Assembly: GCA_946478755.1 (NCBI GenBank)
Contig: CAMLDJ010000302.1
Location: forward strand, 1-6,641
Origin: an uncultured Pedobacter sp.
Lineage (GTDB): Bacteria > Bacteroidota > Bacteroidia > Sphingobacteriales > Sphingobacteriaceae
Direction: 5' to 3'
DNA length: 6,641 bases
Shown: piece after piece, positions 1-6,641 of the stretch
Position numbering within the stretch: the stretch's first letter is position 1
Layout of the letters: each line of letters begins with the position of its first letter
Notes under the pieces: model-generated
What the model saw: the letters and a program-made list of their open reading frames with translations, nothing else
The model's database searches: none
Told to the model about the DNA's origin: nothing
Position numbers and translations under genes: made by a program

Positions 1-469
1 AAGAGTCGTCCAGTTCTGTACCCATAAATGAAATGCCATTGCCATCAATGACTCCAGCTCCGGAGATGGTCACCTGTTTAAGCTGATCGCCACTGATCCA
101 TAAAGTACCCTCACCTTTATTTTCCCGGAAAGCACTTTCCGTATATACTTTTTCATCCGCGTTAGCCAATACAGTAGCATTCACCTCTACGTGAAACTCC
201 ACATAAGACTTGAGTTTGAAAGGACTGGCCATATAAATTTTACCAGAAGGGACAATAACCCTTCCGCCGCCACCTGCTGAGCAGGCATCAATGGCTTTCT
301 GAATGGCAGCCGCGTCATCAGTACGTCCATCCCCGACAGCCCCGTAAGCGGTAATGCTGTAATCCTTTCTAAAGGGAACCGAAGCCAGATCAGCCGCAGC
401 AAACCCTGGAGCAAAACACATTAAAAGGATATAAAAAACAAATAGGTATTTTTTTTCTCTGTTCATCAT
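1..469 (-). CDS. GH28 polygalacturonase-like secreted glycosidase (partial, N-terminal 156 residues)
   Basis: The frame reads from tandem ATG codons at 469 and 466 to the left edge with no stop, so only about the first third of a typical 450-550 residue enzyme is present. Residues 1-25 form a type I signal peptide (basic MNREKK, hydrophobic core, FAAA cleavage region), so the product is exported. The mature start matches the pectin-lyase-like beta-helix opening of GH28: ITAYGAVGDGRTDD (39-52), AIQKAIDAC (55-63), GGGGRVIVPSG (66-76), LKSYVEFHVEVNATVLA (86-102) and VTISGAGVIDGNG (133-145). The catalytic GH28 motifs (NTD, DD, GHG, RIK) would lie beyond the window. GH28 enzymes hydrolyse alpha-1,4-galacturonan or rhamnogalacturonan; the exact substrate cannot be told here. 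The gene follows the GH92 gene by 44 bp on the same strand and is probably in one operon with it. A non-GH28 beta-helix enzyme is possible but less likely. Confidence 0.82.
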   Translation of the reverse strand, partial: MMNREKKYLFVFYILLMCFAPGFAAADLASVPFRKDYSITAYGAVGDGRTDDAAAIQKAIDACSAGGGGRVIVPSGKIYMASPFKLKSYVEFHVEVNATVLANADEKVYTESAFRENKGEGTLWISGDQLKQVTISGAGVIDGNGISFMGTELDDS

Positions 470-513: not shown

Positions 514-2817
514 TTACCTGCTGTTTAAGCCAGTTGGCTGATCATTTGCGGCCACACCCCATAGTGAAGGTTGTTTATCCAGAAAGATTTCCAGTCTGCC
601 TCCGTTAATGATGTCAGCATACCGGATATATGTTTTCGAATACGGTTGCCCGTTTAGTGTTAAACGTTTAATGAATGTATCATTTTTGCTTCGCTGATGC
701 TTAACGATCTCAAATACGCGGTTGCTGCTCAGCCTGATCTTAACGTTTCTAAATAGAGGAATGGATAGCAGGTATTGATCTGAAACAGGATCTAACGGAT
801 AAAAACCCATTGCTGCAAATACATACCAGGCAGACATCTGGCCGGCGTCATCATTGCCGCTCAGTCCACCAGGTCCATCTCCATATTCCTCAGCTAAAAT
901 CTGCTGCACATTTTTTGAAGTCTTCCATGGAGAAGCGGTGTAATTGTACATAAATGGGATCTGGTGCCCGGGTTCATTCCCATGCCAGTATTCCTTCTTT
1001 GCAAAAAGACTATCTAAAGCATTTTCCAGCTGATGCCGGCCACCCATTACCTTTGCCAGCCCTGGCACATCCTGCGGTACATAAAAAGTATACTGTCTTG
1101 GAGTACCTTCGGTAATGTAAGGCTCCCTGGAATCAGATTTGAATACCCGATACCAGGAACCGTCTGCATTCCTTCCCCTCACCATGTTTACCCCAGGATC
1201 AAAAACATTTTTATAATTGGCAGCCCGTTTTATGAGCAGGTTAAAATCAGTGGATTTGCCCAGCGCTTTCGCCATACTTGCCAAAGCGTAATCGTCGTAA
1301 GCATACTCAAGGGTACGGCTCACCTGCTCTTTTTTGTGAAAGGCCTCAGATACACTGTCTTCCATAGGAATATAGCCGTATTTCAGATAAGAACGCAAGG
1401 CCCTGCGTCCCATCCCGTTTTTATAATCCACCTCACCGGCTACCTTGAAAGCATTCCGGTGCATTAAACGGTAAGCCTCATTTACATCATAATCTTTGAT
1501 CCCTTTGTTAAAAGCGGAGGCTATAAAGGCGGTGCCATGATCCCCGACCATGGCAGAAGTATAATTATTCCAACATGGAAAAATAGGCAACCAGCCACCC
1601 TGCGTACCTTTCAATATCATAGCATTTACCCAGTCATTAACAAGTCCTGGCTGCAAAATCTCCATTAAAGGCAAATGGGCGCGATAAATATCCCACATCG
1701 AGAAATCGTCATAGTAATTGCCTTTAGCAAGCTTATTGAGCTGATAATCTCCCGAAAAGCGGGGATAGCTGCCATCAATATCATTGTACAGCCTTGGGTG
1801 CTGCATAACGTGATAAAGTGAGGTATAAAAAATTCGCTTATCCTTTTCTTTACTGGTTTCTATAACGGTTTGACTTAAGGCTTTTTGCCATACCTCTTTA
1901 TTTTTTGCGGCCAGTGACTTAAAATCCCAACCCGGGATCTCCGATGCAAGATTTTTTCTGGCTCCTTCGATGCTGCTGAACGAGGTACCCACCCTGATGC
2001 GCAGCTGCTCTCCTTTTTGAAGCTTCAAGCCGAGATAAGCACCAATATCCTTTTGATTGGCTATGCTATCGGCAAGAAAAATACGTCCCTCACTAAAGGT
2101 CCCTGCATCCTTAAATACACGATCTACCTGCATCACAAAATACCCACTGAAACCGGCAGGTCTGCCCCAGCCCTGATAAATCCGGTGTACCGGATTATAG
2201 CCATAGACCTCGCCGCTCTTTGCGTCAACCTTTATAAAGCCTTGTTGCTCATCGCTATTGGGGCTAACCAGCAAATAAAGGCTATCTGCTTTTGCTACCG
2301 TAATCTGAAGCATGGCACAACGCAGGCTAGCTGTCATTTCTGTGGTTAGCTGATATGCCGGCAACTTTAAGCGATAATAAAACGGTGTACTCTGCTCGTC
2401 ATCATGGGAAAAAGGGGTTCTATAAGCAGAAGCCTTCGTTTTCAATGAACCGGTAATGGGCATAAAGGTAACACTGCCATAGTCCTGGGTACAAGATCCA
2501 CTGATCCAGTGGCTGGCCCTAAACCCACTTAACAGGCTATCTCTGTATAAATATGGTGGCAGACACTTCATTTCAGTGGCCTGGGTCTGGGGAGTCCATT
2601 GCGTCATTCCAAATGGCAGGCCAACGGCGGGTATGGTATTCGCAAACTTCTCCGTTCCTCCGTCGCCATGCTTCAAGGCTGAAATTGTGGTGCTGGCGGC
2701 TGTACCAGCCATTGGCTGGACGTATTTAACCAGGTCCGGGTCCTGTGCAAGACCTATTAACGGACTTGAAATCAATATCCAGCAAAGAACTATTTGGTAT
2801 CCGGTTAGTTTGTTCAT
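514..2817 (-). CDS. GH92 family glycosidase, putative exo-alpha-mannosidase, exported
   Basis: Complete 767-residue protein of normal GH92 length. Residues 1-24 are a signal peptide (hydrophobic 8-23, cleavage near GLA-Q), with no lipobox cysteine, so a periplasmic or secreted soluble enzyme is expected. Family hallmarks appear in order: the N-terminal beta-sandwich with GDGGTEKFANTIPAVGLPFGM (51-71), SGSCTQDYGSVTFMP (106-120), DDFSMWDIYRAHLPL (370-384), GGWLPIFPCWNNYTSAMVGDH (407-427), TEGTPRQYTFYVPQDVPG (569-586), GNEPGHQIPFMYNY (613-626) and GNDDAGQMSAWYVFAAMGFYP (654-674). Glu570 sits where GH92 enzymes carry the general acid, and the Asp656/Asp657 pair sits in the general-base motif. GH92 members are Ca2+-dependent, inverting alpha-mannosidases of several linkages; the linkage here is not predictable. 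The residues after the acid, TPR, differ from the common EGNAWQYT form. The gene is 126 bp downstream of lacI and has an operator-like palindrome in its upstream region. Confidence 0.93.
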   Translation of the reverse strand: MNKLTGYQIVLCWILISSPLIGLAQDPDLVKYVQPMAGTAASTTISALKHGDGGTEKFANTIPAVGLPFGMTQWTPQTQATEMKCLPPYLYRDSLLSGFRASHWISGSCTQDYGSVTFMPITGSLKTKASAYRTPFSHDDEQSTPFYYRLKLPAYQLTTEMTASLRCAMLQITVAKADSLYLLVSPNSDEQQGFIKVDAKSGEVYGYNPVHRIYQGWGRPAGFSGYFVMQVDRVFKDAGTFSEGRIFLADSIANQKDIGAYLGLKLQKGEQLRIRVGTSFSSIEGARKNLASEIPGWDFKSLAAKNKEVWQKALSQTVIETSKEKDKRIFYTSLYHVMQHPRLYNDIDGSYPRFSGDYQLNKLAKGNYYDDFSMWDIYRAHLPLMEILQPGLVNDWVNAMILKGTQGGWLPIFPCWNNYTSAMVGDHGTAFIASAFNKGIKDYDVNEAYRLMHRNAFKVAGEVDYKNGMGRRALRSYLKYGYIPMEDSVSEAFHKKEQVSRTLEYAYDDYALASMAKALGKSTDFNLLIKRAANYKNVFDPGVNMVRGRNADGSWYRVFKSDSREPYITEGTPRQYTFYVPQDVPGLAKVMGGRHQLENALDSLFAKKEYWHGNEPGHQIPFMYNYTASPWKTSKNVQQILAEEYGDGPGGLSGNDDAGQMSAWYVFAAMGFYPLDPVSDQYLLSIPLFRNVKIRLSSNRVFEIVKHQRSKNDTFIKRLTLNGQPYSKTYIRYADIINGGRLEIFLDKQPSLWGVAANDQPTGLNSR

Positions 2818-2877
2818 CTCGGTTTTGCACTGTTAAACGGTACTTACAAAGTCCGCAATTACCGAAAATCTGTATTT

Positions 2878-2908: not shown

Positions 2909-2934
2909 TATTTACTTAATCGATTACGTAAATA
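2909..2934. promoter_or_regulatory. Putative LacI-family operator upstream of GH92 gene
   Basis: A 26 bp palindrome with left arm TATTTACTTAATC and right arm GATTACGTAAATA has 12 of 13 base pairs symmetric; the one break is at 2916/2927. The centre is the CG step usual for LacI-family operators, where the regulator's hinge helix intercalates. The left side is identical for 14 bases to the palindrome at 4003-4028. It lies 9 bp past the lacI stop codon and about 80 bp before the GH92 start, so it is placed to control the GH92-GH28 unit. Binding by the adjacent regulator is inferred. Confidence 0.8.
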
Positions 2935-2943
2935 CTGCTCCGC

Positions 2944-3960
2944 TTATATTGATACCGATGTAGAACTTCTCATAAATAGCTGGGAGGGGATTACACTGCT
3001 ATCTTCGCCTGAAATGGCATACTTTTTCTTCAGGGCCTTAAATAAAATTGTTGCCGCAAGCTCTCCCATCTCAAAGGCGGGTTGTGTGATAGTGGTAAGC
3101 GATGGATTAAGGATTGCCGCTGTAGAATCATTCGAAAAACACACGATTTTAATGTCTTCCGGAATGCGGAGTCCCAATTCCATGCAGACCAGGTAAAGTT
3201 CGGTTGTCATTTTGCTTACCGTAGCTACAATCCCATCTGGTCTGTCTTTACTGTTCAATACCTCAAGAAGTAACTGATAGTTCAGGCTAAGGTCTTCATT
3301 ATAATTGATAATACTAGCCGAATCATAAGACATCTGATAATCAAGCAAGGCCTGCCGGTAGCCCTGCATTCTTTTAGAGCTGATAGACAATGAATCTGAA
3401 ATGGACAGAATAGCAATCTTTTTACAGCCCCGTTCAATTAAATGTTGTGTCACCTGATAGCCACACTCATAATCATTTGTTGTGATCTTCGCTGTATCAA
3501 TTTCCTCGCATGTTCTATCGAAAAAAACCAGGGGTACGGCTTTATGCAGCGCTTTGATGTGGTCGTAGGTATTGGTTTTCATGGCCAGGGACATGATCAC
3601 CCCATCAACCCTTCCTGATTCGAGATCTTTTAAGATCTCCTTTTCACGTTCAAAGTTCTCATGCGTCAGGTAGATCAATGCATGATAGCCCTTTTCAATC
3701 GCAACCGCCTCAATGCCATTCAAGGCCAGTGAAAAGAAACTGTCAGCAACTTCCGGAATGACCACAGCGATGGTTTTGCTTTTTCGTTCACGTAAACTTC
3801 CTGCATAGGGATGAGGAACATAGTTTAAAACTGCCGCTAAATCCAGCACACGCTGCTTGGTAATATCACTAATTTCATGACTATCCCTCAAAGCCTTTGA
3901 AACAGCAGCAGTTGACAGATTCAACTGCTTAGCCAACATTTTAATGGTGATGTTACCCAT
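2944..3960 (-). CDS. LacI/GalR-family transcriptional regulator
   Basis: Complete 338-residue protein of the standard LacI length. Residues 4-24 (ITIKMLAKQLNLSTAAVSKAL) form the helix-turn-helix, followed by the third helix around ISDITKQRVLDLA (30-42) and the hinge LNYVPHPYAGSL (45-56), which includes the leucine that in this family inserts at the central CG of the operator. The rest is a two-lobed periplasmic-binding-protein-like sensor: IAVVIPEVADSFF (64-76), GRVDGVIMSL (116-125), VPLVFFDRTCEE (142-153), TNDYECGYQVTQHLIERGCKKIAIL (161-185), RPDGIVA (240-246), IPEDIKIVCFSN (267-278) and PSLTTITQPAFEMGELAA (286-303). The inducer is unknown; inositol, a uronate or a sugar released by the neighbouring enzymes are candidates from context only. 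Near-identical palindromes sit on both sides of the gene, which argues for autoregulation and control of both flanking transcription units. Whether it represses or activates cannot be read from the sequence. Confidence 0.94.
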   Translation of the reverse strand: MGNITIKMLAKQLNLSTAAVSKALRDSHEISDITKQRVLDLAAVLNYVPHPYAGSLRERKSKTIAVVIPEVADSFFSLALNGIEAVAIEKGYHALIYLTHENFEREKEILKDLESGRVDGVIMSLAMKTNTYDHIKALHKAVPLVFFDRTCEEIDTAKITTNDYECGYQVTQHLIERGCKKIAILSISDSLSISSKRMQGYRQALLDYQMSYDSASIINYNEDLSLNYQLLLEVLNSKDRPDGIVATVSKMTTELYLVCMELGLRIPEDIKIVCFSNDSTAAILNPSLTTITQPAFEMGELAATILFKALKKKYAISGEDSSVIPSQLFMRSSTSVSI

Positions 3961-4002
3961 TTTTCAAGAGATAATTTGGTCAACTGGTCCCGTTAAATCC
4001 AC

Positions 4003-4028
4003 TATTTACTTAATCGGTTAAGTAAATA
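4003..4028. promoter_or_regulatory. Putative LacI-family operator in divergent lacI / inositol oxygenase gap
   Basis: A 26 bp palindrome with left arm TATTTACTTAATC and right arm GGTTAAGTAAATA has 12 of 13 pairs symmetric; the single break is at 4014/4017. It has a central CG. It is centred about 55 bp upstream of the lacI start and about 105 bp upstream of the inositol oxygenase start, so one bound dimer could act on both divergent genes. Its twin is at 2909-2934, centre to centre 1,094 bp away. Confidence 0.82.
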
Positions 4029-4066: not shown

Positions 4067-4120
4067 CAACTTTATCATCATAAACGGGCTGAATTAATAA
4101 TAAGATTAATCGAAAATCTA

Positions 4121-5011
4121 ATGAACACTAACCAAAGCAATTCCGCACAAGAGAACAATAGTCCATTGCATAATCTGGATGAATGGGAAAATGACGTATT
4201 GAACCGATACCCCGACCCATCTGCTATCAACAAAGACAAAAAGGAAGAAGATTTCAGAGCCTACGAAAAAACTGAAAAAGATGGAGTAAAAGAATTTTAT
4301 CGCCTGAACCACAAATACCAGACTTTCGATTTTGTGATGCAAAAAAAGCTGGACTACCTGAAGTTCGACAAGAAAGAAATGCCGATCTGGAGTGCTTTTG
4401 ATTTTCTAAATGAGCTTGTTGATGATTCTGATCCTGATACCGACTTAGACCAGATGCAGCACCTTATTCAGACTTCCGAAGCAATCAGGAACGACGGGCA
4501 TCCGGACTGGATGGTACTCGTTGGCTTAATCCATGACATGGGAAAAGTATTGTGTTTATTTGGCGAACCTCAATGGGCTGTAGTGGGCGATACTTTTCCC
4601 GTAGGCTGTGCTTATTCCGATAAAATTGTCTACCCGGAATTCTTTAAAGAAAATCCCGACTTCAACAATAAGACCTATCAGGACAAATTCGGTGTTTATA
4701 CTGAAAACTGCGGCCTGGATAAAGTACATATGTCATGGGGCCACGACGAATATGTATACCACATGATGAAGGATTACATTCCTGAACCCGGTTTATACAT
4801 GCTTCGCTACCATTCTTTCTATTCCCAGCACAGGGAAAATGCCTATTCACATTTAATGAATGAGAAAGACCACGAAATGTTTAAATGGGTTAGCCTTTTT
4901 AATCCATACGATCTGTATTCCAAAAATCCAAATCAAAAAAGCTGGGAGGAATTAAAGCCATACTACCAGAATCTGGTAGCTAAATACCTGCCTGTTACCC
5001 TTAAGTTCTAG
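4121..5011 (+). CDS. MIOX: Inositol oxygenase (myo-inositol to D-glucuronate, EC 1.13.99.1)
   Basis: Complete 296-residue protein, close in length to animal and plant MIOX (about 285-310). This non-haem di-iron enzyme of the HD-domain superfamily cleaves myo-inositol with O2 to give D-glucuronate. All five metal-binding positions known from the human enzyme are present: His114 (in DQMQHLIQTSEAIR), His138-Asp139 (GLIHDMGK), His208 (SWGHDEY), His231 (RYHSFY) and Asp264 (FNPYDLY). Lys142, matching the substrate-binding lysine of the HDxGK motif, is also kept. Other family blocks are DPDTDLDQ (104-111), GEPQWAVVGDTFPVGC (148-163), CGLDKVHMSWGHDEY (197-211) and LKPYYQNLVAKYLP (278-291). There is no signal peptide; the first 45 residues are polar and charged, so the enzyme is cytoplasmic. 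The start has no Shine-Dalgarno sequence, as is usual in this phylum. The gene diverges from lacI across an operator-like palindrome and is followed after 86 bp by a SusC-like receptor gene. Confidence 0.95.
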   Translation: MNTNQSNSAQENNSPLHNLDEWENDVLNRYPDPSAINKDKKEEDFRAYEKTEKDGVKEFYRLNHKYQTFDFVMQKKLDYLKFDKKEMPIWSAFDFLNELVDDSDPDTDLDQMQHLIQTSEAIRNDGHPDWMVLVGLIHDMGKVLCLFGEPQWAVVGDTFPVGCAYSDKIVYPEFFKENPDFNNKTYQDKFGVYTENCGLDKVHMSWGHDEYVYHMMKDYIPEPGLYMLRYHSFYSQHRENAYSHLMNEKDHEMFKWVSLFNPYDLYSKNPNQKSWEELKPYYQNLVAKYLPVTLKF

Positions 5012-5075: not shown

Positions 5076-5108
5076 ATGAAACTAAACTTACCAAACCATG
5101 AGATTTAA
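5076..5108 (+). other. Ten-codon upstream ORF overlapping the SusC-like start
   Basis: ATG at 5076 opens a 10-residue frame (MKLNLPNHEI, then TAA) that ends 11 bases inside the SusC-like coding region, in a different frame. It could be a leader peptide coupled to translation of the receptor, the remnant of an older start lost by frameshift, or a chance ATG. Its opening MKLNLPNHE resembles ordinary N-terminal coding sequence, but it lacks other support. Confidence 0.2.
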
Positions 5109-6641
5109 TTATACACTTTTTCAGCGTAGCTGCATGTGTATGCTACTCTTACTAATTTGTCAGGCTTCTAATGTAGCACTGGCTCAGAATGAACGAAAAA
5201 TCACCGGCAGGGTGGTCGATGAGCAGAACCTTCCGGTACCTGGTACTTCGGTTTCAATAAAAGGGACTGGTAAGGCGACTGCAACCGGTGGTGATGGATC
5301 CTTTAGCATCACTGCAAAGAAAGGTGATCTACTGGTTGTCAAGTCCATAGGCTTTGAAACGAAAGAGACAATCGTTACGGATGCATCATCGTATACGGTA
5401 AAAATTAGCCAGGCCAGTACAAACCTGGCGGATGTTGTCGTGGTCGGTTATGGTAAAAGTACCAGAAAAGCCTTAACAAGTTCCATATCTTCTGTAAAAG
5501 GGGATGAACTGAATAAAGGAGCCATCAGCGATGTAGGCCAAATGCTTCAGGGTAAGGTACCTGGACTGAACATCAGTCGCAGTGGCGACCCTAACCGGGC
5601 TGCAGCCATCGTTATGCGTGGTGCTTCTACCTTACGTGAAGGTGCACAATCCCCTCTATTCGTTATTGATGGGGTTCCCGGAGCAGATATTTCGATCCTG
5701 GCACCAGACGATATTGCCTCCGTAGACGTTTTAAAAGATGCTGCTGCGGCAGCGATCTATGGAAACAGGGCCGCCAACGGGGTAATTATGGTAACCACTA
5801 AAAAAGGTACAGCAGGTCAGGCCCAACTGAGTTATAGCACTTACTTTGGTGTTGAAAATGTGTCCAACCAGTATGATATGATGAATTCAGACCAGCTGAA
5901 GGCCTTCCTGGAAAAAAATAACTCCTCACTGACGCCGGCTAACGACAAAGGGGCAAATACCGACTGGCAGAATGAGGTTCAACGCAGCAATGCACTCTCT
6001 TACAACCATAATATTTCTTTGAGCGGCGGTACCGAAAAAACAACTTACCATGCCAGCATCAACTATTTCAATCAGCAAGGTATTGTAAGAACCAGTGGCC
6101 TGAACCGTTTTATCGGCCGTGTAGGGATAGAGCAAAAAGCGCTGAACGACAAGCTGAAGATCGGATTCAGCCTGAGCAACTCGATCAGTGATGCCGATCT
6201 GGTACCCTACCGCAATACGGTACTTTCTCAGATGCTGACTTACCTGCCTACGGCACCGGTTAAAAATCCAGATGGCTCCTATTTCGACAACCTCATCCAA
6301 ACCAGCTATTACAATCCCGTATCAATGCTCGAGAATGGAAAAGAGAACCTGAAAACTAAAAACCTGCTGGGAAATTTTACAGCCAACCTGAAATTACCAT
6401 TTGGCTTTTCTTATGATGTATCTGCTTCTTACCAGAATACGCAGAATGTATACGGTGCGTTTTACAACAGTATTTATACTTCCAGGTACAACAACGTAAG
6501 GAATACACCTGATCCGCCAGCAAATCCAGTATTTCTTTCACTGGTTGGACAAAATGGCGTGGCGTTAAGAAATGCTTACCAAAACACGAACAAAATTATT
6601 GAGACCTATCTGACCTGGAACAAAAAACTTGGCGACCATGA
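5098..6641 (+). CDS. SusC/RagA-family TonB-dependent outer-membrane receptor (partial, N-terminal 514 residues)
   Basis: The frame is open from ATG 5098 to the right edge, giving 514 residues, about half of a typical 1,000-residue SusC protein. Residues 1-29 are a signal peptide (hydrophobic 13-21, cleavage VALA-Q). Residues 35 to about 105 form the carboxypeptidase-regulatory-like (CnaB-type) domain: ITGRVVDEQNLPVPGTSVSIKG and DGSFSITAKKGDLLVVKSIGFE. The segment DVVVVGYG (112-119) precedes the plug, which carries the SusC hallmarks GQMLQGKVPGLNISRSG (147-163), MRGASTL (173-179), PLFVIDGVPG (186-195) and ASVDVLKDAAAAAIYGNRAANGVIMVTTKKG (207-237). Barrel strands follow, including YNHNISLSGGTEKTTYHASINYF. 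There is no STN domain, so FecR/anti-sigma signalling is unlikely. The protein would import oligosaccharides or other glycosides with a SusD partner, expected downstream but not visible. Its position 86 bp after the inositol oxygenase gene, with no terminator between, suggests a shared transcript. The substrate is not predictable from sequence. Confidence 0.93.
   Translation, partial: MRFNYTLFQRSCMCMLLLLICQASNVALAQNERKITGRVVDEQNLPVPGTSVSIKGTGKATATGGDGSFSITAKKGDLLVVKSIGFETKETIVTDASSYTVKISQASTNLADVVVVGYGKSTRKALTSSISSVKGDELNKGAISDVGQMLQGKVPGLNISRSGDPNRAAAIVMRGASTLREGAQSPLFVIDGVPGADISILAPDDIASVDVLKDAAAAAIYGNRAANGVIMVTTKKGTAGQAQLSYSTYFGVENVSNQYDMMNSDQLKAFLEKNNSSLTPANDKGANTDWQNEVQRSNALSYNHNISLSGGTEKTTYHASINYFNQQGIVRTSGLNRFIGRVGIEQKALNDKLKIGFSLSNSISDADLVPYRNTVLSQMLTYLPTAPVKNPDGSYFDNLIQTSYYNPVSMLENGKENLKTKNLLGNFTANLKLPFGFSYDVSASYQNTQNVYGAFYNSIYTSRYNNVRNTPDPPANPVFLSLVGQNGVALRNAYQNTNKIIETYLTWNKKLGDH

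Follow-up and report, generated by a model that had tools for sequence, protein, structure and literature searches.

Introduction

LacI-family regulators are known mostly as repressors. CcpA and Cra/FruR, which have the same family fold as the regulator described here, both repress and activate, and CcpA activates from upstream sites; both are global, whereas the present regulator has one or two sites per genome in its close group. Cra activates gluconeogenesis genes (PMC4052901). IpsA of Corynebacterium is a LacI-type regulator with myo-inositol as its effector and a palindromic site, which lies upstream of the -35 element at activated promoters and over the -35 and/or -10 element at repressed ones (PMC3899939). 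The locus considered here resembles IpsA in regulator family, inositol theme, palindrome and predicted site position upstream of the promoter, but the targets of IpsA, an actinobacterial protein, are cell-wall genes and inositol synthesis (ino1) rather than catabolism. Inositol catabolism itself is associated with LacI-type IolQ of Bacillus subtilis, a repressor by the title of the paper (PMC5504672), and with the LacI-type IolR groups (PMC4052901); their organisms and pathway genes differ from those here. KdgR, UxaR, UxuR and UxmR, predicted LacI-type regulators of uronate catabolism in Bacteroides (PMC3878776), share phylum and family with the present protein but differ in genes and organisms, and the word inositol does not occur in the main text of that source.

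Searches of the open-licence PMC literature turned up no title or abstract opening on a LacI gene paired with a myo-inositol oxygenase (MIOX) gene in Bacteroidetes. Glucuronate, the MIOX product, would feed uronate catabolism. The locus described below supplies a concrete regulator and operator pair with which control of inositol oxygenase in Bacteroidota can be tested.

Organisation of the locus

The window, that is, the whole stretch of 6,641 nucleotides analysed from an uncultured Pedobacter sp., carries from left to right GH28(-), GH92(-), lacI(-), MIOX(+) and susC(+). The regulator (338 aa; 2944..3960, minus strand) has a LacI HTH domain (PF00356, 27.9 bits, cutoff 27) and a Peripla_BP_3 domain (PF13377, 97.6 bits), which place it in the LacI family by domain content; its best-scoring solved relatives by sequence are CcpA (3oqo) and next PurR. 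To its right, MIOX (296 aa; 4121..5011, plus strand; PF05153) is followed by a SusC-type TonB-dependent transporter with Plug and CarboxypepD_reg domains (5098..6641, plus strand), which runs off the window. To its left, a domain search identifies a glycosidase of the alpha-mannosidase family GH92 (767 aa; 514..2817, minus strand), and beyond it lies a GH28-type protein cut by the window end (1..469, minus strand). This fragment matches PF12708 above the cut-off and PF00295 just under it, the latter being well matched by full-length GH28-type relatives in loci L119 and L123.

A 10-codon frame, MKLNLPNHEI (5076-5108), overlaps the start of susC and recurs with nearly the same letters in locus L116; it might act as a leader or mark an alternative start.

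Two CG-centred palindromes

Site 1 (2909..2934) appears in the window as TATTTACTTAATCGATTACGTAAATA and lies on the minus strand, reading TATTTACGTAATCGATTAAGTAAATA toward GH92; site 2 (4003..4028, plus strand) is TATTTACTTAATCGGTTAAGTAAATA when read toward MIOX. The two sites share their first 14 bases, are identical at 24 of 26 positions and are both centred on CG. Within each, 12 of the 13 pairs match; counted from the centre, the mismatched one is pair 6 in site 1 and pair 2 in site 2. The twin near-palindromes of the preliminary description are confirmed. Both have the even palindromic form with central CG found in LacI/GalR operators. The rest of the window contains no 26-mer, at any centre, that pairs at 11 or more of 13 positions; the next best (10/13, at 433) is not CG-centred. 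Of 1000 first-order Markov copies of the window, 6 reached a best score of 12/13 at any centre, and the expected number of places within one mismatch of the joint consensus is 5e-10, a consensus that was itself built from both sites. A chance origin of the palindromes was rejected on these two figures.

Site 1 follows the lacI stop (2944) and precedes the GH92 start (2817) by 91 bp; site 2 lies between the divergent starts of lacI (3960) and MIOX (4121), at 42 and 92 bp respectively. Both sites are thus about equally far ahead of the first gene of an arm. Diverged relatives keep the inner part of the palindrome and its target-facing arm, and keep the distal outer arm (positions 8-13) much less: among representatives, target-facing positions 8-13 (TAAATA) sum to 10.2 bits as against 4.3 bits in the distal half. 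LacI-type operators are usually 16-22 nt long (PMC4052901), and the length of 26 bases is in part a local trait.

Association of the sites with the LacI gene

Within the genome collection used, the closest Pedobacter relatives of the LacI protein, at 75-80% identity, occur in P. steynii (L001), Pedobacter sp. KBW06 (L002) and P. psychroterrae (L004). A LacI match with E <= 1e-100 is found in 34 of the 145 Pedobacter genomes in the set, nine of which, at 71% identity or above, form the close group. In the family as a whole, 139 of the 399 genomes carry MIOX, and 106 non-duplicate MIOX loci, the window included, were analysed: 87 with an adjacent divergent LacI gene and 19 without. Loci L168-L172 were left out as duplicates, and L116, L137 and L138 were left out of the MIOX counts since tblastn finds no MIOX there; part of the MIOX matches, mainly the most distant (63-68% identity), lies outside the 106 loci.

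A site satisfying a strict rule lies upstream of MIOX in 81 of the 87 loci with an adjacent divergent LacI gene versus 2 of the 19 without (Fisher p 8e-13, a value that ignores kinship among loci). The rule was built from the clade's own half-site, so the counts lean toward that form. All six strict-rule failures (L125, L217, L221, L237, L239, L254) carry a degenerate variant of the site at the expected place. Sites that the strict rule leaves uncounted also occur among the 19: a perfect palindrome of another form in L206, where a LacI gene lies ~5 kb off, half-like sites in L226 and L248, and a site ahead of another gene of the locus in L244 and L247. Across the genus, TTTACNNNANCGNTNNNGTAAA finds matches in 65 of 145 genomes, a number of limited use because the reversed control pattern also matches many genomes; 29 loci taken from these matches comprise 21 LacI-MIOX loci and 8 others.

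The form of the half-site can be set beside the recognition helix in 86 LacI rows with a site. Operators of the type CG.TTTCG go with Val at helix position 17, a lac specificity residue, in 12/12 cases, and the 67 operators of the type TTA[AC]G with Thr, Ile, Ser or Ala; L236 has Val17 with a third operator type. On the LacI tree, where the site used for L208 differs from the MIOX operator of that locus, the states of position 17 and half-site change two or three times, and the sign test (p = 1) is without power because the independent changes are too few.

Comparison thus upholds the assignment of the sites to the LacI protein, with the MIOX/SusC and GH92/GH28 arms as their targets, and both palindromes very probably serve as operators for the regulator encoded between them. 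That they bind some other protein instead, or are chance or structural features of the DNA, is highly unlikely: site presence tracks the adjacent LacI gene, the half-site type appears to vary with the recognition-helix residue, if over few independent changes, and a CG centre is in keeping with the LacI family.

L126 has a LacI gene with two internal stop codons together with a partial MIOX match, a pair that looks decayed together. In L003 a perfect 13/13 palindrome, TATTTACGAAACCGGTTTCGTAAATA (7925-7950), separates a LacI gene (54-55% identity) from a divergently oriented gene whose product is a repeat protein, FG-GAP-like by eye.

Presence and loss of the arms

Site 2 is kept in 10/10 loci of the close group. 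Site 1 follows GH92: it is present in 5/5 clade loci with GH92 directly behind lacI (the window, L116/G003, L119/G131, L123/G061 and L279/G128) and in 0/5 without GH92 (L117, L118, L120, L121, L122). On the LacI tree the five loci without site 1 group in one supported clade and may therefore represent a single event. In P. psychroterrae (L116, ~9754-9906) site 2 is followed by no more than a remnant of MIOX, made up of the two ends of the gene, and then by susC; a different MIOX (65% identity) is encoded elsewhere in the genome. Operator and box (see below) are retained in L116 despite this reduction, as would be expected if they also serve susC. Arms that come and go with their own operators (GH92/GH28, MIOX) constitute a natural experiment on the recruitment of genes to a regulator.

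In two-armed relatives the locus also includes susD and, past it, a calcineurin-like phosphoesterase, and L119 adds a gene with a weak acyltransferase match (L119, 299-2488; L123, 16112-17110). Pfam was applied to the L119 proteins, giving PF00149 for the phosphoesterase, and the L123 phosphoesterase was identified through its resemblance to the L119 protein. As a guess, a mannose-phosphate-inositol substrate, e.g. fungal or plant inositol glycolipids, would fit such a locus.

Extent of the regulon

The nine close genomes contain 13 sites with two mismatches or fewer to the 22-base core, and every one of them falls at this locus, which points to a local regulon. Places elsewhere with three mismatches number three, close to the two given by the reversed control pattern, and a wide regulon was rejected on this comparison; a slightly different core, scanned in four genomes, adds one further three-mismatch place, in G002. 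The small regulon suggested earlier stands as far as its two flanking arms are concerned, and the consensus scan of the nine close genomes does not bear out members elsewhere. Control of lacI by its own product, also suggested, is possible in the window, where site 2 lies 42 bp from the lacI start, but this distance ranges from 32 to 473 bp over 21 representatives.

The two sites are good ones and lie 1094 bp apart, and by binding both the regulator could loop out the DNA that carries its own gene, as the preliminary description had envisaged. The spacing, however, is 1094, 1088, 1085 and 1279 bp in four genomes, with no common helical phase, and five genomes of the close group carry one site only; looping was rejected as very unlikely.

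A CA-centred sequence, TTACGTAATCAATTACGTAAAT, is identical at two off-locus places, G002:C16:566330 and G129:C1:4719133.

A promoter-like box at constant distance from the operator

Bacteroidetes promoters have the motif TAnnTTTG at -12 to -5 (PMC9723704, PMC7366714). A predicted -7-like box of the MIOX promoter, CAACTTTA, lies at 4067..4074 on the plus strand, +39 to +46 from the operator end, and a corresponding box of the GH92 promoter, AGATTTTCG, at 2863..2871 on the minus strand, +38 to +46 from the operator end. When the 81 loci are anchored at the operator and read toward MIOX, the 22 cluster representatives (ungapped identity <62%) have A41 in 20/22, T44 in 21/22 and TTT at exactly +43 in 12/22; TTT within +42 to +46 is found in 15/22 and is missing from 7/22. 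Columns +40 to +45 hold 6.36 bits toward MIOX versus 0.66 bits toward lacI, where the best six-column stretch reaches at most 2.56 bits. None of 5000 mononucleotide shuffles gives 12 TTT at one position, and none of 2000 reaches 6.36 bits. With the identity limit lowered to 50%, 15 representatives remain, with T44 in 14, A41 in 13 and TTT within +42 to +46 in 9. The distance from operator to start codon varies over the 81 loci (69 to 144 bases, once 283) while that to the box is constant, so the spacing appears to be locked to the box.

Seven loci with GTTAACG-type operators (L131-L135, L236, L241), which played no part in defining the box but are close kin of one another, have T43 and T44 in 7/7 and TTT in 5/7. 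Of the other held-out sites, L217 has T43 T44, L206 has T44 T45, L226 is shifted by one and L248 has TTT at +43. The GH92 promoters carry TTTT at +41 to +44 in 5/5 loci, within 1 base of the MIOX layout. The MIOX box fits TAnnTTTG in part, as CAACTTTA in the window and as GAAATTTG in some distant relatives. Scanning 67 loci of LacI homologues for an exact TAnnTTTG box at a set distance from a strict CG palindrome yielded only 18 palindromes, and no box at the MIOX distance.

A constant -33 element was not found across the aligned promoters, some of which have TTG-like letters at +12 to +16; in the GH92 promoter, TTG at 2893-2895 may be such an element. In loci such as L125-L130 the start codon is reached already at ~+70, which makes it unlikely that the box itself is a -33 element there. 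If the box is a -7 element, the operator centre would lie near -63.5 at the predicted MIOX promoter and near -62.5 at the predicted GH92 promoter. The operator ends ~38 bp before the predicted -7 box, without overlap. This constant distance, absent from the preliminary description, would alter the likely mode of action.

Mode of action

A LacI dimer would bind the CG-centred palindrome upstream of each promoter, that of MIOX-SusC and that of GH92-GH28, as a local regulator dedicated to an inositol/glycan utilisation locus. It may act as an upstream, class-I-like activator that helps polymerase at both promoters, with an inositol- or sugar-related ligand as the probable switch. That the palindromes are two operators of a local LacI regulator, most likely a class-I-like activator of both arms, is the reading we favour, with a probability of roughly 0.55. 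Its comparative part comprises the sites, their link to the LacI gene, the gene targets and the constant box spacing. From these we infer binding, transcription starts, activation and ligand. Constant site-to-box spacing, a feature expected of class-I-like activators, is found at this locus and, in similar form, in a second subfamily (see below).

Activation is argued from a single feature, the position of the operator upstream of the box at a constant distance, and spacing alone is also compatible with repression. With the same regulator and operators, a conventional repressor released by an inducer might, when bound, hinder RNA polymerase from upstream, and we regard this as the main alternative, serious if less favoured. 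It agrees with the repressors for which the family is mostly known, and the 42 bp between site 2 and the lacI start would allow self-repression. The MIOX boxes match TAnnTTTG only partly, 7/22 lack TTT, and no constant -33 element was found, all of which speaks against the activator reading. A large comparative study (PMC4052901) places more than three quarters of LacI-type sites at 140 to 30 bp ahead of the start codon, a range that includes both window sites. Against repression, the sites are clear of the predicted -7 box and their spacing is tied to the box and not to the start codon; the -7 boxes are also weak.

Should the spacing indeed mean activation, the customary interpretation of a LacI-family gene as encoding a repressor would not hold for many annotated genes of these bacteria. 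The 81 aligned operator-promoter regions provide a basis for designing tests.

A second LacI subfamily

A looser look beside lacI, which gave 35 palindromes, first made a second subfamily apparent. Its loci are mostly from Chitinophagaceae (L006-L073; one example is on the minus strand of L017, near 3033), and their LacI relatives show 37-43% identity. The operator, AT[CT]G.T..CGG.A[AT]CGATTGC (ATCGTTACCGGGAACGAT-like), is followed by TAAAWAAA and then by a TAnnnTTG box at +45 to +52, a layout that seems similar to that of MIOX but 6 bp longer. More widely, LacI regulators beside sugar-utilisation genes in Sphingobacteriaceae and Chitinophagaceae might be upstream activators that bind a short way ahead of the Bacteroidetes-type promoter, with base-exact spacing and an AT-rich arm toward the promoter, in at least two subfamilies (predicted centres ~-63.5 for MIOX and ~-69.5 for SusC), a generalisation that we hold tentatively and with some doubt. 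Fourteen representatives (28 sites) of the second subfamily have T51 in 14/14, G52 in 11/14, T45 in 11 and A46 in 10, and the best six columns hold 6.81 bits away from lacI versus 2.5 toward it. SusC-type genes, judged by eye, lie downstream in most of these loci.
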